IMG/VR virus record: IMGVR_UViG_3300028840_004424 | Location: 1-43,562 of that record | DNA: 43,562 nt | DNA from: a virus | Reading direction: 5' to 3' (one strand) | Part shown: piece after piece, positions 28,745 through 42,381 of the stretch | Position numbering within the stretch: the stretch's first letter is position 1 | How the letters are laid out: each line of letters begins with the position of its first letter | Program-made: the position numbers and the translations under genes | Notes under the pieces: model-generated | What the model saw: the letters and a program-made list of their open reading frames with translations, nothing else | What the model was told of the DNA's origin: nothing | The model's database searches: none

Positions 28745-29409
28745 CGGAAAGTGTATCTAGATTTTTTAAATGGTCTGATGATAGCGGTAATTTTGCGACC
28801 AGCAATCTTTCTGTTCAGGGGTTCATTGCTGCAATTGATTACATGATATATGATACAAGCTACACGAAACAAGATCTTTCTGTTTTAACACATATCCCTT
28901 TGAATGATTTATTGTTGCGCGTACCAATATTTAAAGGCATCAAATACAATCTTTATAGAGAAAATGTTCTTGACGAACTTGCTGAACAATTCAATGTGTT
29001 AGGCTGGCAGTATGCTGGTAAGTACAACATAACTACCACAGTCCAAGATAGAAAAAATGATTTTTTAAAAGTGTCAGGTGATATACTTAGACATGCTGGG
29101 ACAGCATACGCTATCTATATGATAATGACACAATTTGGTTATACCAATGTAATTGTTCATGAAAATTGGGATGTTGGTATTTTGTATGATGGCGTTTTTG
29201 ATTATGACGGAAAAGCCATTTACAGTGGTAGTTTAGATAATCAGCTTTTTGTTGTTGAGTTTACATCCGATCATGACATTGACTCTGATGAACAAGATGC
29301 AATAGTTGACCTGATTAATTCTTACAAAAAATATAGGATTGAGCTTTATGCTCTAATCATTCACGAGCCGTCAAACCCCGGTGGAAGGACCGAGGTTATT
29401 TGGCCATAG
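28741..29409 (+). CDS. Baseplate protein I-like
   Basis: The 222-residue protein follows gpJ with an ATGA overlap. The pattern LAEQFNVLGWQY, then RHAGTAYAIYMIMTQFGYTNVIVHENWDVG near residues 118-145, corresponds to the GT..A....L...G....E.W segment of phage tail protein I. An aromatic loop (YDGVFDYDGKAIYSG) follows, and the C-terminus is PGGRTEVIWP. gpI joins the wedge to the fibre in P2. Confidence 0.75.
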   Translation: MTESVSRFFKWSDDSGNFATSNLSVQGFIAAIDYMIYDTSYTKQDLSVLTHIPLNDLLLRVPIFKGIKYNLYRENVLDELAEQFNVLGWQYAGKYNITTTVQDRKNDFLKVSGDILRHAGTAYAIYMIMTQFGYTNVIVHENWDVGILYDGVFDYDGKAIYSGSLDNQLFVVEFTSDHDIDSDEQDAIVDLINSYKKYRIELYALIIHEPSNPGGRTEVIWP

Positions 29410-29419
29410 GAGTTTTATT

Positions 29420-30961
29420 ATGTGGGATCCTAATGACTGGATTACAGATTTTGCAACAGCATACAGAACGATTAAGGTGCCTGAAACAACCGATCCCGTT
29501 CTAGGGCTTGATGAACCTGTAGGGGCAATTTTATTTTCTGCTCTGCCTGATTATTCTGGATCTCAATTTGCAAACATGGCCAACAATTCACTTTACAACG
29601 AGTTGCGTTTTATTGATGACAACGTTACTTTAACTGTTGGCAATGAGACGCAATTGATTGCAGCTAAAGACTGGTTGTCTAGGCGTACCGTCTTGATTGG
29701 AGGGGTAGGAATAACGGTCAACATAACTGCAAGTTTTTCGTCAGATGAATGGCCGATTGTTTTTAGCGGTATCGTTGGAGACGGTTATATTTATATAAAT
29801 GGCAACGGCTATAGTTTAACAAATACTGACAATACTAGATTCTTTTATTTTGACAGGTGTATGGTTGAGGCGCAAGTCTATGATGTTGACTTAACAAACA
29901 CTGATGCCCTTGGTGCAACATACATTGAAGCTGTTGACTGTTTTTATGTTAGGTTTGTAGCTGTGACTTTTAAAGAACCTACTGCAGCAAGTTACGGAAT
30001 AAAACTTCAAAATGTTTTTAATTCATCAATTTCTGGATGTTCATTTGAAGACGATTTCATATCATTTTTAGAGATGATCAACTCATTTTGTTCTGTTAAC
30101 GCTTCGTCAGATTTCGGATCGATACCAACAACGCAACCTATTAAAATATCTTATGGTAGCGTGTTGCACTTCGATAAACTAGATGTTTCTCTTACTGGCC
30201 AAAGTTTAACTTCGCCTGTTTATGTTGGTGTTGTTCGGGATGATTCATCACGTGTTCATTGTGTTGCCTACGGAACAAGTGGTGTTGTTACATTTACCGG
30301 GTCTGATCCTACCGCTGTTTCTGCAGACATACAAAGATTCTTAGACTTTATGCCAAAAGAATTAAACACTGACGTTACACTGGTTTTACCTGCAATTACC
30401 ATCAATGCATATCCTTTGACCGTTGAAGGTTTTTATGGAACAGGGACGCTTAAAATAAAAGGTGCAACGTCATATACATCAAAAAATCTCAGCTTAACAA
30501 CTATTATTTCAACAGACGACGATGATTCAGCGGTTGAGATTAAACACTGTAGGTGTAAAGTTGTTTTGGATAACTTAAAACTTAACCGAAGTGATTCAGG
30601 TGCAACAGTTGGATCTTTAGCATATATACTTGATTCCAGAAATGTTCTTTGCAATGTTCTTTATGCAGTCTCGGCCAATTACAATTCAAATGGATGGCTT
30701 GCACAAGAGAGCCAGTTTGTGATGATACACGAGTGTTATTGTGGTAAGACTGACAATGGGATTGTTGCCACTGATGCTAGTTATGTTGTTGCACTAGATA
30801 ACGTAGAGGAAAATAGCGGGTCTTCTCTGTGGCCAGCTCAGTATGGAAACTATGCAACCAATGGATCAATTATCAGAATGACAACCGGGGCTTCTAATCA
30901 GATAAATGGTGCTTCAGGGAGTGCAACATCAGACAATGGTGGAGATACGCACGCAAGCTGA
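29420..30961 (+). CDS. Beta-helix tail protein (spike-like)
   Basis: ATG 29420 has AGGAGTTTTATT upstream and is preferred to 29381. The first 70 residues may be a baseplate-binding part. The rest is strand-rich with repeated short turns (YIYINGNGYSLTNTDN, IEAVDCFYVRFVAVTF, LQNVFNSSISGCSFED, HCRCKVVLDNLKLNRS), typical of a right-handed parallel beta-helix as in tailspikes. The end is Ser/Thr/Gly-rich. No catalytic residues were recognised. It sits in the usual position of a gpH-like fibre, after gpI. Confidence 0.65.
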   Translation: MWDPNDWITDFATAYRTIKVPETTDPVLGLDEPVGAILFSALPDYSGSQFANMANNSLYNELRFIDDNVTLTVGNETQLIAAKDWLSRRTVLIGGVGITVNITASFSSDEWPIVFSGIVGDGYIYINGNGYSLTNTDNTRFFYFDRCMVEAQVYDVDLTNTDALGATYIEAVDCFYVRFVAVTFKEPTAASYGIKLQNVFNSSISGCSFEDDFISFLEMINSFCSVNASSDFGSIPTTQPIKISYGSVLHFDKLDVSLTGQSLTSPVYVGVVRDDSSRVHCVAYGTSGVVTFTGSDPTAVSADIQRFLDFMPKELNTDVTLVLPAITINAYPLTVEGFYGTGTLKIKGATSYTSKNLSLTTIISTDDDDSAVEIKHCRCKVVLDNLKLNRSDSGATVGSLAYILDSRNVLCNVLYAVSANYNSNGWLAQESQFVMIHECYCGKTDNGIVATDASYVVALDNVEENSGSSLWPAQYGNYATNGSIIRMTTGASNQINGASGSATSDNGGDTHAS

Positions 30962-31464
30962 TGATTACTAATAGAATACTACCATGTGAATTACTTTCCT
31001 ACTCTGTTGACGGGTATGCAACTGTAAAACTTCCACAATATGAGGGAGATATTAGAGATCTTACAATTGAAGAGGTTGTTCCAGTTAACACAAATTCACT
31101 ATCTCAATTTAACCCTAAGATTGGTGACAAAGTTCTTGTGTGTTTTGATCATTTTGGAGATTCTTATCTACTTGGTTCTCTTCATTGTCAACAACAACCA
31201 TTTACTGAACCACTTTTACCAGATCAAAATCAAGTTGTTGCAAATGATAATATTTCTTTAAAACAAACAGCCCTAGGACAATTTGGTGTAACGAAAAACA
31301 ATATTGTTCCAGTACCTCCATTTACAAATAACGAATTACTCGATATTATTTTAACCTGGATGAATCTTGTTAATACTTCCACGTGTCCCCCAGGTAGTCC
31401 GTTAAGCAACTCTGTAAATATGGTTTTACTTTATACCTTATTGTTACAGTTTAAGGTACCATAA
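30961..31464 (+). CDS. Baseplate spike/hub protein with OB-like domain (gpV/gp138-like)
   Basis: Residues 1-85 (ILPCELLSYSVDGYATVKLPQYEG, then FNPKIGDKVLVCFDHFGDSYLLGSLH) match the OB-fold of phage spike proteins such as P2 gpV or Gp138, in which the loop before GDxVLV and a Gly near the end are conserved. The C-terminal part is helical. It overlaps both neighbours (TGATG, TAATG). It probably forms the tip of the central spike complex. Confidence 0.7.
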   Translation: MITNRILPCELLSYSVDGYATVKLPQYEGDIRDLTIEEVVPVNTNSLSQFNPKIGDKVLVCFDHFGDSYLLGSLHCQQQPFTEPLLPDQNQVVANDNISLKQTALGQFGVTKNNIVPVPPFTNNELLDIILTWMNLVNTSTCPPGSPLSNSVNMVLLYTLLLQFKVP

Positions 31465-33338: not shown

Positions 33339-33869
33339 ATGGCAACTTTAAAACAATGGGGATCTTTGGGTAACGTTGTCTTTGAATTTCAGTCAAGCCC
33401 AGTATACGGTTCTTACTCAGAGTCCAGATCGGCCCTGTATACCGATCAGAGACTACTTTTGACAAAGACGCCCATAGGTACCTTTTCAGGCCAAAAGCCT
33501 AAGAGGCAGGCTGCCGGATTGGATCTGGTGACTGTTTCGTTTGACTGCAAGATCTCAGCGTTGATTCTTACCACAATTGATCTACAACTCTGGGAAAAAG
33601 TGCTTTTAACCGGGGGACTCGGTGGTCCAATTGCTGGCGATCAGTTCGGCAAATTGAAAAAGGACGAAAGGTTTTACACTGATGTCCCTGCCTTTATCGA
33701 GTCACTTGACGATCTGTTAGATTCTCAGGCACCTGCCAGGTTTCATGTTGGAGAAAAATACCGTGGTAAGTTTACCCTGGATAATTTAGATAAGACCGTT
33801 TTTCATTACCCGAATGGCGAAATAAAACAAGCAGAGCTGTCACTTAAGCTTGTAGAATGGATTGACTGA
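33339..33869 (+). CDS. Tail protein U (P2 gpU-like)
   Basis: KQWGSLGNVVFEFQSSP, then PKRQAAGLDLVTVSFDCKISA, then LDDLLDSQAPARFHVGEKYRGKFTLDNL match the P2 gpU family, which has a conserved FxLE..S...WG-type start and a K..G.W....L end (here GEKYRGKFTLDNLDKT). The 176 residues fit the family. P2 gpU is an essential tail protein of the baseplate hub and spike region. Its start abuts the tape measure stop. Confidence 0.82.
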   Translation: MATLKQWGSLGNVVFEFQSSPVYGSYSESRSALYTDQRLLLTKTPIGTFSGQKPKRQAAGLDLVTVSFDCKISALILTTIDLQLWEKVLLTGGLGGPIAGDQFGKLKKDERFYTDVPAFIESLDDLLDSQAPARFHVGEKYRGKFTLDNLDKTVFHYPNGEIKQAELSLKLVEWID

Positions 33870-33870
33870 A

Positions 33871-35763
33871 ATGGCTGTCGCTGATTATTGGGTCAGGTTG
33901 TATCCTAGGGAAATCGATCTTGCAGATGATGTTTATCGTCTTGATTCTGTTGAGACCAATATAAGAGTTGTCAACGTATCGATCAACACCACTAGTATTG
34001 AATACATTCAAAATGATGAGGCATTTTTTGGGAGCTTTATTTTAAATCACGATCTTCTAGCTCCTAACTGGTCTGTGACTGACACATGGGGGCCTGGGGG
34101 ATCAAAAGCATTTATTAGGGGTGACTCTTACAAAAACTTTTTATTTGTGTGTACTGGTGGATCTGTTATGTCGTTCTTGATTTCAGACGGCGACATAACG
34201 GCAATACAAGAAAAGACAGCTCCAACAAGTGCAACTGACTGCGCTTATTACAATGGATACTTGCTTGTTTGTGATGATGTTTACATTAGAAGTTACAGGG
34301 TAGAGTCTGATGGAAAACTTAATCAGGTTGATAGTCTTGAATTTGTATCTTCGTTTGTTTGTATTCATGTTAATTCTGATTTTGTTTATGCTGGTGATTC
34401 CAACGGATATGTTAGGGTTATTTCATTAGACGACGATGGTCAACTGAATTGGGTTAGTTCAGATCTAGTCAATTCTGATATAACTGACATAGTTAGTGAT
34501 TCTCAAGGATATGTTTTTGTTGCTGGTTATAATCTAACTGGTGCAAAGCTAAAAACATATTCTGTTGATGAATCTGGTGATCTCGAATTAGTAGATCAAA
34601 GTTCATACCTCGGTACTGAAACAGGGGGTTTAGCGATAGATAACTATTTGGTCTATATGGCCAACATTGGATCTGGTTTGAGGGTTTTTCAGCACACAAA
34701 TGGAAATCTATCTTCACCGCTAACTATAACCCCCGGTAATCCTGTTTATGCTGTTAGCAACTGGGAGTACTACACATATGTTTCCTTGGGTGCAAATGGT
34801 GTGGTGATCTATTACATAGAAGAGCTAGCTTCAATGGATTACAAGTTGCTTAAAACTTTATCAGCAATAGATAGCGACTGGATAACTATTGTACAAAATA
34901 AAGCACTTGCTTCTGACACATCAGGTTTTAAGTTGCAATTGATCGAATTATCTAACTCTCCATATGTCGATACAACTGTTACTTTTCAGCCAATAGAAGC
35001 AGGAGTATATGATGAGGAGGTAACATATCATTTAAGTACAGCCCAATCTACAGCTTTACTGAGTTGTGAAGCAACATGTATTGCCAGAGTTGAAACATTA
35101 ATAAATCCTGCAAGTCTAACATTTGAGCAAACACAAGTTAAAGGCAGTTCGCAAGCGCAAATTTCGAGAGTGTTAAATCATGGGGATTCAAACTATAATA
35201 TCACTGAGATAAAAATACCAGACGGTTTCAATATTTCAGATGAAGTTTTACCAAAAGCTTTAGAGAGTGGTGTACTAGATGCAATAGAGTCTTTTAGTGA
35301 AAGTGGTTTTACTCCATCATCATTGGTTGCTTGTGGCAAATATTTAGTTGCAATAAGTGATACAGAGATGAAATCGCTTTATGTGGATTCAGACGGTAGT
35401 ATAACAGAGGTTGATAGTTATGCGTCAGTTGGAACAACGGATACGGACATAACAGGCGAATATATTGACAACTGTCTTTTCGTTTGTCGTGGCGGAGATG
35501 GGCTTTTTGCCTATATTGTAGACCAATCAAGTGGTGAAATAACACTAATGGACTCAATCGACATGGGAGGACAAGCAAAACAAGTTACAAAGCTGGATGA
35601 AATTATTTGGCTTGCAAATGGATCAAGAGGTGTTGATAGTTTTAAAATTGTCTCCGGTGAATTTGTTCATTTGTATCAACATAATACAGATGTCACTAGC
35701 GTCAGCGGAATATGTGTAAATGGTAGTAATGTATTTATTGCTGTTGATTATACACCAGCATAA
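33871..35763 (+). CDS. Beta-propeller tail protein with Ig-like linker
   Basis: After an N-terminal 75 residues (YWVRLYPREIDLADD...), residues 85-360 are repeated short blades with the pattern hydrophobic strand-x-D/S-G-x-hydrophobic (FLFVCTGGSVMSFLISDGD, VYAGDSNGYVRVISLDDDG, VFVAGYNLTGAKLKTYSVDE, LVYMANIGSGLRVFQHTNG), like lactonase-type seven-bladed propellers. An Ig-like piece follows (TFQPIEAGVYDEEVTYHLS), then a second, incomplete propeller. ATG 33871 is preferred to TTG 33862. Located between gpU and gpD genes, it is likely a hub-decorating or receptor-binding virion protein, by inference. Confidence 0.6.
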   Translation: MAVADYWVRLYPREIDLADDVYRLDSVETNIRVVNVSINTTSIEYIQNDEAFFGSFILNHDLLAPNWSVTDTWGPGGSKAFIRGDSYKNFLFVCTGGSVMSFLISDGDITAIQEKTAPTSATDCAYYNGYLLVCDDVYIRSYRVESDGKLNQVDSLEFVSSFVCIHVNSDFVYAGDSNGYVRVISLDDDGQLNWVSSDLVNSDITDIVSDSQGYVFVAGYNLTGAKLKTYSVDESGDLELVDQSSYLGTETGGLAIDNYLVYMANIGSGLRVFQHTNGNLSSPLTITPGNPVYAVSNWEYYTYVSLGANGVVIYYIEELASMDYKLLKTLSAIDSDWITIVQNKALASDTSGFKLQLIELSNSPYVDTTVTFQPIEAGVYDEEVTYHLSTAQSTALLSCEATCIARVETLINPASLTFEQTQVKGSSQAQISRVLNHGDSNYNITEIKIPDGFNISDEVLPKALESGVLDAIESFSESGFTPSSLVACGKYLVAISDTEMKSLYVDSDGSITEVDSYASVGTTDTDITGEYIDNCLFVCRGGDGLFAYIVDQSSGEITLMDSIDMGGQAKQVTKLDEIIWLANGSRGVDSFKIVSGEFVHLYQHNTDVTSVSGICVNGSNVFIAVDYTPA

Positions 35764-35774
35764 GGGGTTTTACA

Positions 35775-36593
35775 ATGCATAGTATAAGAGCTTTTGGATA
35801 TACGTCAAACCCTGGTCAGGTTGGAACGTTAGTTGATGAATTAGAATTTGAATATCATGTACTGGATAAGCTAAAAATAAATAGCGATGATACCATAGTT
35901 TTAAATGGAACATTAACAGACTGTCAGAATTTTATTTACACATTAAAGCTAAATGGATCTCTTAGTGTCGTTGATAATCTGTCTACTGGAGAATATGCCT
36001 TCACATACTTTGACATAAAAAACAATAGTGTTTTCTATGGAGATTATTATGATGATTCGGTTTATAAGGCTGATATAGATTCCAATGGCATAGCTATATT
36101 AAATGATTGCGCTGTTGGCTCAGTTGGTACAGTTAGTTGCATATCTGTAATGGATTCAGGATTCATCGGAGCCCTAGGTCTTTCAAGTCCTCCGGTTGTA
36201 TATATTATTGACAATCCATCTGATGGGTATATTGATCTAAATGTTGTTTTTAATCCTCAATATCCAGGCGTTTATGATGATCAAATAAGAGTTGAAACAG
36301 ATTCCCCAGGGTCTTTGCATTATATTCCCGTTTATGGCGAATCACCAGAAATAACCCTTATTGATGATTATGATCTTTTATTGGATCATGATATGCGCTG
36401 GGATCAAATATCTTACTATTGGTTTAATACTATGGGTTATGTACAAGAAGTAAAAGACGCAAATGCACATATTCCATTATCTGTTAAGATGCAAAAATAT
36501 GTTCCAATTTGGACACGTGTTATAAAGCCAGACATAGGTCAAGAATCAATTTTTGTGACATCATCTAATGAATGGAGAGCGACAGTTGATTAG
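35775..36593 (+). CDS. Propeller-Ig protein fused to a gpX (LysM-like) tail domain
   Basis: The 272-residue product has strand-rich propeller-like sequence (IVLNGTLTDCQNFIYTLKLNG), an Ig-like segment paralogous to that of the preceding gene (VVFNPQYPGVYDDQIRVET), and then HDMRWDQISYYWFNTMGYVQEVKDANAHI with IWTRVIKPDI, which aligns well with P2 gpX (D..LD.I...YYG...G.VE.V..AN......PDV). gpX is normally a 70-residue protein acting with gpU and gpD in the hub. GGGGTTTTACA precedes the ATG. It overlaps gpD by 26 bases. Confidence 0.65.
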   Translation: MHSIRAFGYTSNPGQVGTLVDELEFEYHVLDKLKINSDDTIVLNGTLTDCQNFIYTLKLNGSLSVVDNLSTGEYAFTYFDIKNNSVFYGDYYDDSVYKADIDSNGIAILNDCAVGSVGTVSCISVMDSGFIGALGLSSPPVVYIIDNPSDGYIDLNVVFNPQYPGVYDDQIRVETDSPGSLHYIPVYGESPEITLIDDYDLLLDHDMRWDQISYYWFNTMGYVQEVKDANAHIPLSVKMQKYVPIWTRVIKPDIGQESIFVTSSNEWRATVD

Positions 36594-37569
36594 CTCTTAT
36601 AAATTTTTATGGAATGGTGCTGACATAACAAGCACATTGAATATCAAGTCTATTAGTATAGATGATGATATGGGGCTTGAAGCTGATTCCATGGAAATTG
36701 TTTTGTATAATGAGGATAATAAATATTTAGATTACTTTGTTCAGGGCGATGATGTTAAAATTGATTTTGTTTTTGATAACGGGAAAACCTTTAGCACTGG
36801 ATTATTTTTTGTCGCTACCATAGGCGGAATAATAGGATCTAACAATGAACATAGGCTAGGGCTTATTTCTGTTCCAATGGATTCCCCTGGTATCAGAAAT
36901 CAAATGTCTTATGCGAGAAAAAATGTAACATTAAAAACTTTACTTTCTGATGTTTGCAAAAAAGCAAACTTGGTACTTGTATACAGGCTGATGAGAAATC
37001 CAGCTTTGCCATGGAACATAAAATTGAAAAACGTTTCCCATACTGACGAAAAAGTAGGCGAAATAATAACAGAGTATGCAAGTACATTTAATGTAATACT
37101 AAAGATACATAACGAACAATTGATTTTTTCAGATAAAAAATCGTATCTGCTTGATCCGCCGGTTTATACTTTTAACCCTTACTCTGATCCAATTGAGGAT
37201 TTTACATACGAAATGAATTGGAATCTTTATTCTCAGTATGATGTAAAATACTATAATCCTAAAACCGGCATGGTAACAAGCGACAAAAAAACAAAAAAGA
37301 GTACAATAACAACAAAGTCAGAAACGATAAAAAAGATCAATTCCAAAATCAGTGATCCTGATATGGCAAGGGCTATTGCAATGAGTGTTGATGATCAGTT
37401 TGAATTCAGGGTTTCATTTTCCACTTATGACAATCCCGATCTTGTTGCTGGTAACGTTGTTATGATAACTGATCTAGGGAATTTTTCAGGTCCGTATTTA
37501 ATAACAAAATCTTCTCATGATTATCAAACGTCATGGAAAGACACAATAGAGGCAATAAGCCTTTTCTGA
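36568..37569 (+). CDS. Baseplate hub / late control protein D-like
   Basis: The 333-residue protein starts YKFLWNGADITSTLNIKSISIDDDMGLEADSMEIVLYNEDN (residues 11-51), the typical gpD N-terminus, followed by FSTGLFFVATIGG, RKNVTLKTLLSDVCKKANL and a C-terminal GNVVMITDLGNFSGPYLITKSSHDY. P2 gpD is the hub below the tube. ATG 36568 overlaps the gpX-like gene; a TTG at 36586 with GGAGAG six bases upstream is an alternative start. A Lys-rich low-complexity stretch near residue 235 is unusual. Confidence 0.83.
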   Translation: MNGERQLISSYKFLWNGADITSTLNIKSISIDDDMGLEADSMEIVLYNEDNKYLDYFVQGDDVKIDFVFDNGKTFSTGLFFVATIGGIIGSNNEHRLGLISVPMDSPGIRNQMSYARKNVTLKTLLSDVCKKANLVLVYRLMRNPALPWNIKLKNVSHTDEKVGEIITEYASTFNVILKIHNEQLIFSDKKSYLLDPPVYTFNPYSDPIEDFTYEMNWNLYSQYDVKYYNPKTGMVTSDKKTKKSTITTKSETIKKINSKISDPDMARAIAMSVDDQFEFRVSFSTYDNPDLVAGNVVMITDLGNFSGPYLITKSSHDYQTSWKDTIEAISLF

Positions 37570-37585: not shown

Positions 37586-39583
37586 ATGGGATCTAGGTAT
37601 GTGGTAACGAGTGATGACAGAACAAGAATGGAAGAATTACTCGAGAGTGAATCAATTGTTGTTCCGATTGGAGCAAGTTTTACTGTTGTAGATTCTAAGT
37701 ACAATACATACGAAGAAAATAGGGGTATTGATTCCACCGAGAGAAACCAGCTTGTTTTGTTATTGGAAATATCTGGCACAATGCCAATAGGAACAGAGAT
37801 CGTGATCACTCCTAACATAAGTCAATTTGGTGAAATCTCAGCATTTACCCATACGACAACTCAATCTTACACTGATCAAGATGCAGTAATTGAAATTGAG
37901 CATGACAATTTGACATATAGCGATTTTATTAAAGTACAGTACAAGCTCAAACAAGGTGGTTCCGAATACACGATCAATAGGATGACCGGTATTTTAAAAA
38001 AAAAGTCTGACACTGCCATAATTGAAGAACTCCAAGAGGCAAACACCGAAGCAGGGGAACCTATGGGTTTCCCGAATCTTACCGATTCGGTTATTTCTTG
38101 GACGGATGGAACAAAGACTTTCTCAATTGCACCAGCCGTTAATTCTTTTGATGTGTGGGTCCAGGGAAAAAAATTCACCAAGTATGCTGCAGAAACGCTC
38201 ATAGGAGATGGAACAGATTTTACCATAGCCGAGGGTCTTTGGTATTTTTCCTATGATGTAAACGGCGATCTGGTTGCTTCTCAGACAATTTGGGATTTTT
38301 CCCAGGTAGCACCTGTCTATCTCATCTATTGGGATAACACCGGTGAAACGGCAATAATTGAATGTGAGGAACGCCATGGCATCACTATGAGCTGGGCTAC
38401 TCATAAACATATGCACTATGGTGAGGGTACGCATTATATTAGTGGTTTACTCCCAGGTGACATAACATCGGATGGTAGCGGTGATTTGGATGCGCATGCT
38501 CAGTTGTCAATAGGAAGTGGTGAGATAGCCGATGAAGATATTTTTACGAGTATCGCGGCAATGTCTTTGCCAGCTCAGATCCCTGTTTACTACAAAACAG
38601 GTGCATCGGGGTTATGGAGAAAAACAACAGCAACAAATTTTCCTGTGAAAGAATATGGGGTTTCTGATCGCCTTGCATACAACCAATACACCGGTGGGAC
38701 TTGGCAACAGACTGAGGTAACAAACAATGGGTTTGTGCTTGCTCATATTTTTGCTTTACCTGATGTCAATAATGATGTCATTGCCATCCAGGGGGAAGCT
38801 GAATACCTCACACAGTCTGCAGCCAGAGACGGAGCTGAGATTGAGCTTTTAGCTTTACAGGTTGCTGGCTTGCCATCTGAAGAATGGATACCTATTTGTA
38901 CGTTGATTTATCAAACATCTGACAGCTATTCCAATACAGTTGAGGCAAGGATAAGAAGCACGGGAACGGGTGACGATTTTATTGACTGGCGTTTTTATGG
39001 CATCGGACCTGCCCTTGGAGGGGGTCCGCCCAGTCCGCAACCAGTGATAGAGACTGTTGTCATGCCTGTATCGATTGGATGGGTAGAAGATGGAAGCACA
39101 CCTCCAGAGACATCTTTTCTTTATGAAGGTGCGACTAATGGAAGTATAAGACTCAGGAAATTTGCTGGGGATTCGGACAATGACATTTTGTTTCCTTGGA
39201 AGGTACCACATGACATCAAAGCGGATGAAGGCATCTTTGTTTCTTTGGACGGGGTAATCACTGAGAGTACTGTTCCAGCTTCAGACGAAGGGGTGTCTTT
39301 TAAGATAAAAGGCTACTCTATTGGACAAGGTGATAGTATAGATTTGACTTATGGATCAGAGGTTGAAAGCGCGCTTGATCTGTATGCTGCAGGGGCAACA
39401 ACACAGGGCGATCATTTTCTCACTGATAAAAGCGATAAGATAACGATCACGGATTTAGCAGCAAACGAAATTGCAATGATTGCTATACGCAGACATACCG
39501 GCGATACTGATGATGATTATCAAGAATTTGTTGGTATAGCATTTATTAACATAGAATATGTTAGGGAGGTGAAAACTTCATGA
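37586..39583 (+). CDS. Tail fibre / baseplate-attached structural protein
   Basis: The 665-residue protein has an N-terminal 150 residues of helices and strands (RTRMEELLESESIVVPIGASF...), a central region with YGEGTHYISGLLPGDITSDGSGDLDAH and EYGVSDRLAYNQYTGGTW, a proline-rich hinge (GGGPPSPQPV near 490) and a C-terminal beta domain (WVEDGSTPPETSFLYEGATNG...). Similar central strands occur in phage fibre proteins. AAAGGGGTCTATT precedes the ATG. It overlaps the next fibre by four bases. Confidence 0.68.
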   Translation: MGSRYVVTSDDRTRMEELLESESIVVPIGASFTVVDSKYNTYEENRGIDSTERNQLVLLLEISGTMPIGTEIVITPNISQFGEISAFTHTTTQSYTDQDAVIEIEHDNLTYSDFIKVQYKLKQGGSEYTINRMTGILKKKSDTAIIEELQEANTEAGEPMGFPNLTDSVISWTDGTKTFSIAPAVNSFDVWVQGKKFTKYAAETLIGDGTDFTIAEGLWYFSYDVNGDLVASQTIWDFSQVAPVYLIYWDNTGETAIIECEERHGITMSWATHKHMHYGEGTHYISGLLPGDITSDGSGDLDAHAQLSIGSGEIADEDIFTSIAAMSLPAQIPVYYKTGASGLWRKTTATNFPVKEYGVSDRLAYNQYTGGTWQQTEVTNNGFVLAHIFALPDVNNDVIAIQGEAEYLTQSAARDGAEIELLALQVAGLPSEEWIPICTLIYQTSDSYSNTVEARIRSTGTGDDFIDWRFYGIGPALGGGPPSPQPVIETVVMPVSIGWVEDGSTPPETSFLYEGATNGSIRLRKFAGDSDNDILFPWKVPHDIKADEGIFVSLDGVITESTVPASDEGVSFKIKGYSIGQGDSIDLTYGSEVESALDLYAAGATTQGDHFLTDKSDKITITDLAANEIAMIAIRRHTGDTDDDYQEFVGIAFINIEYVREVKTS

Positions 39584-42381
39584 TGGATTTTGCATACCAA
39601 AACGGAATATATGTTCCAAAGGCTGATTTTTTAACATTGCCGAGGCCTCCAAGCATTGCAAATCTAAGTCAATATCTCACTGCAAATGGTGTTAGGGTAA
39701 AAGCAGATGTACGCTATAACGGGAAAGATGCGGGTTCAAGCTCGTGGGCTCCATGGGGGCCTGGTGGATCATTGACAATCACCAGCGGTACGTCTCCTAC
39801 GCTGAATGATGGATCTCCGTTATTTGGCGGAGCTGATGACTCGGTTAAATTCAACACAGGGGCAGCTTATGAAGATACGACTGGGTTAATTGGACAAGTT
39901 ACCACAGAAGATTTTGTAATAGAAGCTATTATCAAAACACAATCGGACGGGGCTGCTGACGGTTTTATTGCTACGACACGAAATTCATCTACTGGCTGGT
40001 TATTGTACCAACCCGGTTATCAAATTAGATTATTAATTAATGACGGTACATCATCAGTATCCTGGACAGGTGTCAAAGACCCTGATCATTGGTATCACGT
40101 CCTTGTTTTTGTCAACAGAGATGAAGCGTCAACAGATGGTTGTAAATTTTATATAAATGGTGTTGTTGATGGTTCCGGTGCAGACATGTCAAGTTCTTCA
40201 TCATCTTTGTCTTCTGAAAATTTTACAATTGGTCGTCGTGCCGAGGCATCGACAGCCCCGTATCAATCAAACGTTGCCTATTTGGCCATGTGGAAATACG
40301 CTTCTTGGTTCAAATCAGGCTCAGACGGCCCTGCAGAATGGGCCGAGATTGCATTTGAACGTTTTTGCACTTTGTTTAGTGCACAAGCATATGGAGGTGG
40401 AACAAAAACACCATTGTTATTTGAGCGATCGGGTACCGATTATACAATGAAATGGGAAGAATCGCTAAATGCTTATAAGCTTTATCAAATTGGCGAGGAT
40501 ATGCCAGCATTTAAGCGGGTTAAAGATAAAAGTGGTCAAATTTTTTGGGGTTATTCACCAAACGAAGCAGCTGAAAACAAAATAACCGAAGCAGAAGATT
40601 TAACAACAGATTGGTCAAGTATTGCGTTAAATAGTATAAGTTCAAATGTCGTTGATTGTCCAGACGGGCGCACTGTTGTTGATGGAACAATTGCCAATAC
40701 TACAGACACCCAACATGGCGCTTCTATTACAGCAACATTGACGGCACAGTTGTATACATTTTATGTTTTAGCCAAACCAGGTGATCAAAATTGGGTTAAA
40801 TTAGAAGACAGCACACTAACTAACTGTTACGCTTATTTTCGTATAGATTCAGGCAACGAACAAGTTGGTTCTACGCCAGGGGCAGGGGTCGACGATGCTT
40901 ACGTGTTTCCAAATTGGTGGAATGGTTTTACAATGGTATCAATCACATTTACCGCAACAGCTGCTTCCCACACCTTGAAAATACTATCAGCTGCAGCGGA
41001 TAACGATGACGACTTTGTTGGTGATGATAGTACAATTAATACTTATTGGTGGGGAATGACATGTGTTCAACATGATTGTTGGTCTACTCCGATTATATCA
41101 GTTGGTGGTACTAAATCAAGGGTATGGTCTGCACTGAGGTACAAGGGAGATGATGGTTTTGTAAATAATGTTGATCGCATTGGGTCTATGCAAAATGAAT
41201 TTTGGTTTCCTGATTACAATATAAGAGATCCAAGGCCAACTATGTACATCACAAAAAATGCATTAACAACTGATCGAATTTTTGCTTATGCTCAGTCAGC
41301 TGAAAATTACCGTTCACAAACTGAGGCATCCGGTGGAAACTCTGGTGTTTGTGGAGCGGGAACGGATGTTGCTGATGGGTACCCGCATCGAGTATTGACC
41401 AGATGGGAAGATGACAATCTCGAGAATTTTGACAATCTAGATGCGGGTACACCTGATACAGATTGCTTAATGCCAGGCGATCAGAATCATGTAAATATTG
41501 CTAATAATCAAAACGCGTCATTGATGATTACCGGGCTGATTCGTAATGCTTCTATATTTGAAAACAAGATAGATTTAAATAGCGGTAAAATAGTTGTTGC
41601 AGCAAGAAAACGAGGTGTCGATCAACTAAATCCATCATTAACAATCAATGGCACAACTAAAACACCCGAAATTCGATTCAAGGGTGGTGATGCCGATGGA
41701 ACTGATTGGAATTACTGGACGTATGGCGGAGATTTAACAATAACTACCGCGACGGCTCCATCGTATAATCAGGGTTTTCCTGATGTTGGCCAAACAGGCA
41801 AACGCTGGGATCTCAATACGGATTCTGTAAAATTCAACAATGGGGCAGCTTACGAAGACACCGGTGGTACTATTGGTCAGATTGGGACTGAAGATTTTGT
41901 TATCGAAATAGTTTTCAAATTTTATCAAACCGACACAGACTTTTTGATGTGCACACGATACGACGCAGAAGGGTATCTTGTTCGAATAGATAGCAACAAA
42001 ACGCTACAGATGGGGATATTTGACTCTGGGGGACAAATTTTCATCGACACTCCAACTTCAACATTTGTGGAGAACAACTGGTATCACGCCATGATTTTTG
42101 GCAATCGTGATGAAAATTCAAACGATAGTAGCCGTTGGTATGTCGACGGTGTTGAAAAAGGCACTGGTGATAATATTAGTTCAATTAATGGATCTTTGTC
42201 TGGTGCCAATTTCACAATTGGCAGAAAATCAAGTCCAGGCACCGGTAATGCCGCAGAGGCTAATGTTGTTTATTGCGCTATGTGGAAACAGGCATCCTGG
42301 CATCAAGCTGGTGCATCAGGCCCTGCAGAATGGGCGCTTATTGCCAAGGCGCGTTCAGATGCTTTCTGGGGGACTGTATAG
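39580..42381 (+). CDS. Large tail fibre with two LamG/ConA-like domains
   Basis: The 933-residue protein carries two homologous lectin-like domains: residues of about 40-255 and about 690-930. Both contain VKFN(T/N)GAAYEDT, IGQ(V/I)(T/G)TEDFVIE, WYH(V/A), a F/W-Y-I/V-(N/D)GV hairpin, FTIGR(R/K) and SGPAEWA. A middle part (about 330-500) has an SSNVVDCPDGRTVVDG carbohydrate-binding-like jelly roll. GGGAGGTGAAAACTTC precedes the ATG. Such domains usually bind host glycans, so this is the best receptor-binding candidate. The duplication is within the gene. Confidence 0.75.
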   Translation: MMDFAYQNGIYVPKADFLTLPRPPSIANLSQYLTANGVRVKADVRYNGKDAGSSSWAPWGPGGSLTITSGTSPTLNDGSPLFGGADDSVKFNTGAAYEDTTGLIGQVTTEDFVIEAIIKTQSDGAADGFIATTRNSSTGWLLYQPGYQIRLLINDGTSSVSWTGVKDPDHWYHVLVFVNRDEASTDGCKFYINGVVDGSGADMSSSSSSLSSENFTIGRRAEASTAPYQSNVAYLAMWKYASWFKSGSDGPAEWAEIAFERFCTLFSAQAYGGGTKTPLLFERSGTDYTMKWEESLNAYKLYQIGEDMPAFKRVKDKSGQIFWGYSPNEAAENKITEAEDLTTDWSSIALNSISSNVVDCPDGRTVVDGTIANTTDTQHGASITATLTAQLYTFYVLAKPGDQNWVKLEDSTLTNCYAYFRIDSGNEQVGSTPGAGVDDAYVFPNWWNGFTMVSITFTATAASHTLKILSAAADNDDDFVGDDSTINTYWWGMTCVQHDCWSTPIISVGGTKSRVWSALRYKGDDGFVNNVDRIGSMQNEFWFPDYNIRDPRPTMYITKNALTTDRIFAYAQSAENYRSQTEASGGNSGVCGAGTDVADGYPHRVLTRWEDDNLENFDNLDAGTPDTDCLMPGDQNHVNIANNQNASLMITGLIRNASIFENKIDLNSGKIVVAARKRGVDQLNPSLTINGTTKTPEIRFKGGDADGTDWNYWTYGGDLTITTATAPSYNQGFPDVGQTGKRWDLNTDSVKFNNGAAYEDTGGTIGQIGTEDFVIEIVFKFYQTDTDFLMCTRYDAEGYLVRIDSNKTLQMGIFDSGGQIFIDTPTSTFVENNWYHAMIFGNRDENSNDSSRWYVDGVEKGTGDNISSINGSLSGANFTIGRKSSPGTGNAAEANVVYCAMWKQASWHQAGASGPAEWALIAKARSDAFWGTV

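Follow-up and report, generated by a model that had tools for sequence, protein, structure and literature searches.

gpX is BW4, a LysM-fold wedge protein that may stand alone or be part of a fusion with other baseplate proteins (PMC10811340), and its R2-pyocin form appears in PDB 6u5b as 'Glue PA0627'. Seven-bladed propellers have been described at the end of short tails. The T7 nozzle gp12 is a 7-bladed propeller at the tail end (PMC6702177), and the crAss001 muzzle gp44 combines a seven-bladed propeller with Ig-like domains inserted in the propeller (PMC10172136).

The window analyzed here is the whole 43,562-nucleotide stretch of virus record IMGVR_UViG_3300028840_004424, from an uncultured phage. 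Its contractile-tail gene cluster runs in the order sheath, gpJ, gpI, a fibre-like gene, a short gpV-like gene (so labelled by inspection only), tape measure, gpU, gene 1, gene 2, gpD and two large fibre genes. Genes 1 and 2 occupy positions 33871-36593, where an initial annotation of the sequence had correctly placed extra coding material between gpU and gpD. The main features of the locus, with the predicted domains, are as follows.

33339-33869, + strand: gpU-like gene, upstream neighbour (PF06995, E 0.0015, below cutoff; TMP-U-X-D order)
33871-35763, + strand: gene 1, 630 aa from its ATG; predicted Ig (ASH) domain 1 with propeller 1 inserted, N-terminal half of ASH2, and propeller 2 blades 1-3.5
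33958-34086, + strand: putative N-terminal half of ASH1, from its position and analogy with ASH2
34090-34962, + strand: predicted propeller 1, about seven blades (counted by inspection), from Pfam and blade profiles
34963-35085, + strand: predicted C-terminal half of ASH1 (VTFQPIEAGVYDEEV), paralogous to 36219-36344, with a weak CFAP65 Ig match
35086-35238, + strand: predicted N-terminal half of ASH2
35239-35760, + strand: predicted propeller 2, first part, with blades 1-3 and two strands of blade 4, from blade-profile matches
35757-35777, + strand: gene border, with stop TAA at 35761-35763, Shine-Dalgarno-like TAAGGGG and ATG at 35775
35775-36593, + strand: gene 2, 272 aa; predicted second part of propeller 2, C-terminal half of ASH2 and gpX-like domain
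36219-36344, + strand: predicted C-terminal half of ASH2 (VVFNPQYPGVYDDQI)
36360-36590, + strand: candidate gpX/LysM-like domain (BW4 'glue'), from weak profile matches and a position overlapping the gpD start
36568-37569, + strand: gpD baseplate hub, downstream neighbour (phrog_52, E 1.3e-24; tblastn matches to phage late-control D proteins)
29381-30961 and 37586-42381: separate fibre-type genes

The domain limits in gene 1 were set by inspection, and TTG at 33862 is an alternative possible start of this gene. The gene order J, I, fibre, V, tape measure, U, X, D is unlike that of the relatives examined. The protein in the gpV-like position before the tape measure (30961-31464, 167 aa) has no family match worth naming.

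The reading that we prefer, with a probability of roughly one half, is that gene 2 encodes a gpX extended by propeller-in-Ig modules, two in all, and that the gene 1 product docks on it by complementation of a shared propeller and Ig domain, as an elaboration of the baseplate. Such an assembly would resemble the crAss001 muzzle and T7 nozzle in carrying a seven-bladed propeller at the distal tail, and the crAss001 muzzle also in its Ig domains and domain insertion. However, in those two podovirus nozzles it is the propeller that receives the insertion, of Ig domains or of a tip, whereas here the propeller is predicted to be inserted in an ASH-type Ig domain; moreover, the tail is contractile (sheath, gpJ, gpD) and the propellers lie next to gpX, whereas the T7 and crAss nozzles sit on short tails. 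The nesting, the contractile tail and the attachment to gpX set the locus apart from both. The initial annotation had described a propeller hung on the hub plug or spike as not a known arrangement; the combination of propeller and Ig domains at a phage tail end does have a precedent in the crAss001 muzzle. No phage tblastn match pointed to homology with the T7 nozzle or crAss001 muzzle. The literature covered was that under open licence, and the lack of an earlier description therefore counts for little.

Two predicted propellers within split Ig domains

Gene 1 matched the Pfam Lactonase family (PF10282) through propeller 1 with an E-value of 5.3e-6 (26.3 bits against a cutoff of 21.7), and this propeller could be divided by inspection into seven blade-like segments. 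A profile made from ten blades of both propellers retrieved the solved structures 3fgb, 3hfq, 6igb and 3scy (E 6.7e-5 to 0.07), all of them lactonase-type 7-bladed proteins. These matches support the assignment of propeller 1 to the lactonase-type 7-bladed family and bear out the propeller blades predicted in the initial annotation. Propeller 1 differs from the proteins of this family (PF10282; 3fgb, 3hfq, 3scy) in its tail context and in having a second copy split over two genes, and its likeness to them is one of sequence. Propeller 2 by itself matched no Pfam family; with a profile built from propeller 1 only, it scored 15.2 bits, compared with 9.9 bits for the best of 1000 shuffled sequences. 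Its blade-profile signal came mostly from the gene-1 half; the gene-2 half matched poorly and was much weaker alone.

AlphaFold models of the gene 1 and gene 2 proteins, made from single sequences without an alignment, had a pLDDT of about 34 in both cases. These models, made without relatives, gave no usable fold; the blade number and ring closure are accordingly putative, and all fold assignments for the two genes are drawn from sequence. The top Foldseek matches of the gene 1 model were mostly propellers (TM 0.1-0.3), a result given little weight because the underlying model was poor; the gene 2 model had no significant Foldseek match.

No homologues of gene 1 were found in phages, IMG/VR or genomes, and none of gene 2 in phages or IMG/VR. 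Three weak matches were all that a search of 296 Bacteroidota genomes returned for gene 1, and on inspection we set these aside as generic propeller-type proteins encoded away from tail genes. The terminase large subunit of the phage (18159-19598) is closest to those of Flavobacterium phage 11b (49%) and other Bacteroidota phages; its nearest relatives in IMG/VR showed no detectable match to the gpD or gene 1 of this phage.

The segments at 34963-35085 and 36219-36344 are paralogous, with an alignment score of 56 that none of 5000 shuffles reached (best, 50), and both contain the motif VxFxPxxxGVYD. This agrees with the paralogy of Ig-like segments proposed in the initial annotation. They are not complete domains, however: each corresponds only to the C-terminal half of an ASH/HYDIN-type Ig domain, and that these are half-domains interrupted by propellers had been overlooked.

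For ASH2, the stretch before propeller 2 was joined to the stretch after it. The C-terminal half alone matched Pfam Cep192_D8 with 19.4 bits (E 0.0012), and the joined sequence with 31.1 bits (E 2.9e-7; cutoff 33.5), so that the N-terminal half adds about 12 bits. When eight shuffled N-terminal halves were joined to the real C-terminal half, scores were 17-20.9 bits, a gain of at most about 1.5 bits. The joined sequence also matched HYDIN-type Ig, ASH and NCBIfam choice_anch_D (24.2 bits). The rise far above the shuffled controls argues that module 2 consists of a propeller inserted in an ASH/HYDIN-type Ig domain. Several members of the ASH/HYDIN/Cep192 and choice-of-anchor D Ig domains are thus matched by the joined halves; unlike those domains, the Ig domain here would contain an inserted propeller of about 300 residues. 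The N-terminal half of ASH1, tested alone, was not significant, and by analogy with module 2 we infer that module 1 has the same layout, with propeller 1 inside ASH1.

The gene border within propeller 2

Genes 1 and 2 appear to be pieces of one repeated architecture and not two independent propeller proteins. An alignment of module 1 with module 2 runs across the gene border; its score was 110, and the highest among shuffles was 76. On inspection, we place the border in blade 4 of propeller 2, within the hairpin that links strands 2 and 3, so that this blade is cut and the propeller divided over two genes, a point missed in the initial annotation. Gene 2 is read in frame -1 with respect to gene 1; 11 nt separate the genes, and their frames overlap by 16 nt.

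This arrangement could also arise if the locus encoded one gpX fusion chain of about 900 aa, with a split that is only apparent and caused by faulty assembly or by the recent change of a single base; the architecture and wedge location of our preferred reading would then be kept. The 16-nt overlap of the frames, the joining of the two halves into one repeat unit and the position of the break within a blade are consistent with a single chain. By contrast, gene 2 is preceded by a strong, well-spaced Shine-Dalgarno sequence: the anti-Shine-Dalgarno energy at its ATG, -7.9 kcal/mol, is matched or bettered by 2.1% of all ATGs and 20% of listed gene starts. Moreover, read-through would produce a blade of about 57 residues, whereas the segments of propeller 1 have 31-49 (by inspection), and no homopolymer longer than four bases was seen at the border. 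Programmed -1 frameshifting was rejected, as no slippery heptamer was seen in the frame overlap and the RNA fold at the border was unremarkable (z 0.36). The strong Shine-Dalgarno sequence and the lack of a frameshift signal therefore favour two real proteins over an error, and we regard the single chain as rather doubtful. No homologue in which the split between genes 1 and 2 is conserved was found.

With two proteins as the preferred reading, the position of the border in the blade 4 hairpin suggests that the products would assemble by completing propeller 2 and ASH2. We put forward, tentatively, that the split propeller serves as an assembly joint: each protein would bring half a propeller and half an Ig domain, and their completion would lock a propeller-bearing accessory onto gpX. 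A propeller common to two chains would, if true, be an unusual joint in a phage tail.

An imperfect repeat with a 24-nt offset covers 35757-35798 (13 of 18 positions identical, P about 0.02; SIRGFTM/HSIRAFGY in the gene-2 frame). Such a near-duplication is a possible origin of the extra start site, but it is too weak to rely on. Shine-Dalgarno-like sites are present at many gene starts of this phage, despite its Bacteroidota-phage-like terminase.

The gpX-like end of gene 2 and its location

Like the gpX/BW4 'glue' proteins (PF05489; R2-pyocin PA0627; T4 gp53 LysM), the end of gene 2 is encoded in the slot before gpD and shows a weak match to the core motif. It occupies the exact gpX position in the order TMP-U-X-D, and the 3' end of gene 2 (36593) overlaps the start of gpD (36568). 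About 30 loci from phages and IMG/VR that have a related gpD, many of them near-identical, carry an ordinary gpX, usually of 69-72 aa, upstream of gpD; exceptions include Acinetobacter phage HFM1, with an 878 aa protein after gpX, and one phage of Bacillus, where gpU takes that place. Two Bacteroidota loci share the TMP-U-X-D order, with a gpX of 76-83 aa. No extension of the gene-2 kind was seen in the related gpD loci with an identified gpX. Thus gpX/BW4 normally has 69-83 aa in the loci examined, whereas the version in gene 2 is preceded by propeller and Ig modules and its match is below the Pfam cutoff. HFM1 also has a large extra protein in this slot (L002:4287-6923, annotated as tailspike-like), but it is encoded by a separate gene and the HFM1 gpX has no N-terminal extension.

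The sequence match is weaker. The last ~76 residues of gene 2 keep the RWDxI...AN core of gpX and matched PF05489 with an E-value of 0.062 (13.4 bits, below the cutoff of 22). With our own gpX profiles, built from 12-14 sequences or from two Bacteroidota sequences, the score was matched or bettered by 6-17 of 5000 shuffles (P about 0.001-0.003). When all ORFs of the window were scanned with these profiles, gene 2 was not clearly ahead of chance matches; in the six-frame scan it ranked first only with the two-sequence Bacteroidota profile, at a non-significant E-value of 0.38. The gpX-like C-terminus proposed in the initial annotation is thus supported, through its slot directly before gpD more than through its marginal sequence match. 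Position is the stronger argument, and the C-terminus of gene 2 is probably, though not provably, gpX, with a predicted LysM/gpX fold.

If the C-terminus were not gpX, gene 2 would encode just the latter half of a decorative protein; a separate gpX would then be absent, or the glue domain fused elsewhere. The match to gpX is indeed marginal, and Mu and Milano carry LysM glue domains fused to other proteins (PMC10811340). However, the overlap with the gpD start in a conserved gpX slot, the RWDxI...AN core and the comparison with shuffles make this explanation improbable.

Taking gene 2 as the phage's gpX, the wedge/hub 'glue' with an N-terminal extension, its product would be anchored to the wedge through the gpX domain, probably in six copies per baseplate. 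The extension and gene 1, about 800 extra residues, would form two tandem modules, each with an approximately seven-bladed propeller inside an ASH/HYDIN-type Ig domain. Because gpX is a BW4 wedge protein, we expect the propellers at the wedge/hub rim; there the glue of each wedge would also carry the propeller of gene 1, so that every glue copy would bear two. The hub plug or spike proposed as their location in the initial annotation was rejected on family knowledge of gpX as the BW4 wedge 'glue' (PDB 6u5b; PMC10811340). BW4/gpX is a small conserved baseplate part, and a version with two large modules would reveal the wedge glue as a display site. It is a poorly known phage group, with a terminase resembling those of Bacteroidota phages, that offers this anchor-plus-module architecture.

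Possible structural or surface-binding roles of the modules

The modules may make the baseplate stiffer or attach to the host surface; either is possible, and we propose that they elaborate the baseplate structurally and possibly also bind a surface. A primary function as a receptor- or glycan-binding device at the baseplate rim would accord with the propeller lectins on eCIS fibres (PMC12923769) and with the tailspike-like protein between gpX and gpD in HFM1, which lend receptor binding some plausibility. Surface modules are also often lineage-specific, and those described here have no detected homologue. Against this, the modules matched no known lectin family, lactonase-type propellers being the closest, and three other large genes of the phage are of fibre type, one of them encoding two LamG lectin domains. 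Since lectin-like domains (LamG) are found in these other genes, it is less probable that the propellers act as the main receptor binder, and the main receptor-binding proteins are more likely to be encoded by the separate fibre-type genes. We therefore consider receptor binding as the primary function unlikely, though well ahead of a cargo role, with an effector or toxin on the hub; effector cargo had also been raised in the initial annotation. For cargo, only the location speaks; no enzymatic or toxin family was above cutoff in Pfam or NCBIfam and PHROGs gave nothing, and the idea was rejected as very improbable, having no evidence of any kind.

The fibre-type protein encoded at 39580-42381 has 933 aa and contains two LamG_3 (ConA-like lectin) stretches together with a match to a GTA spike-fibre domain.
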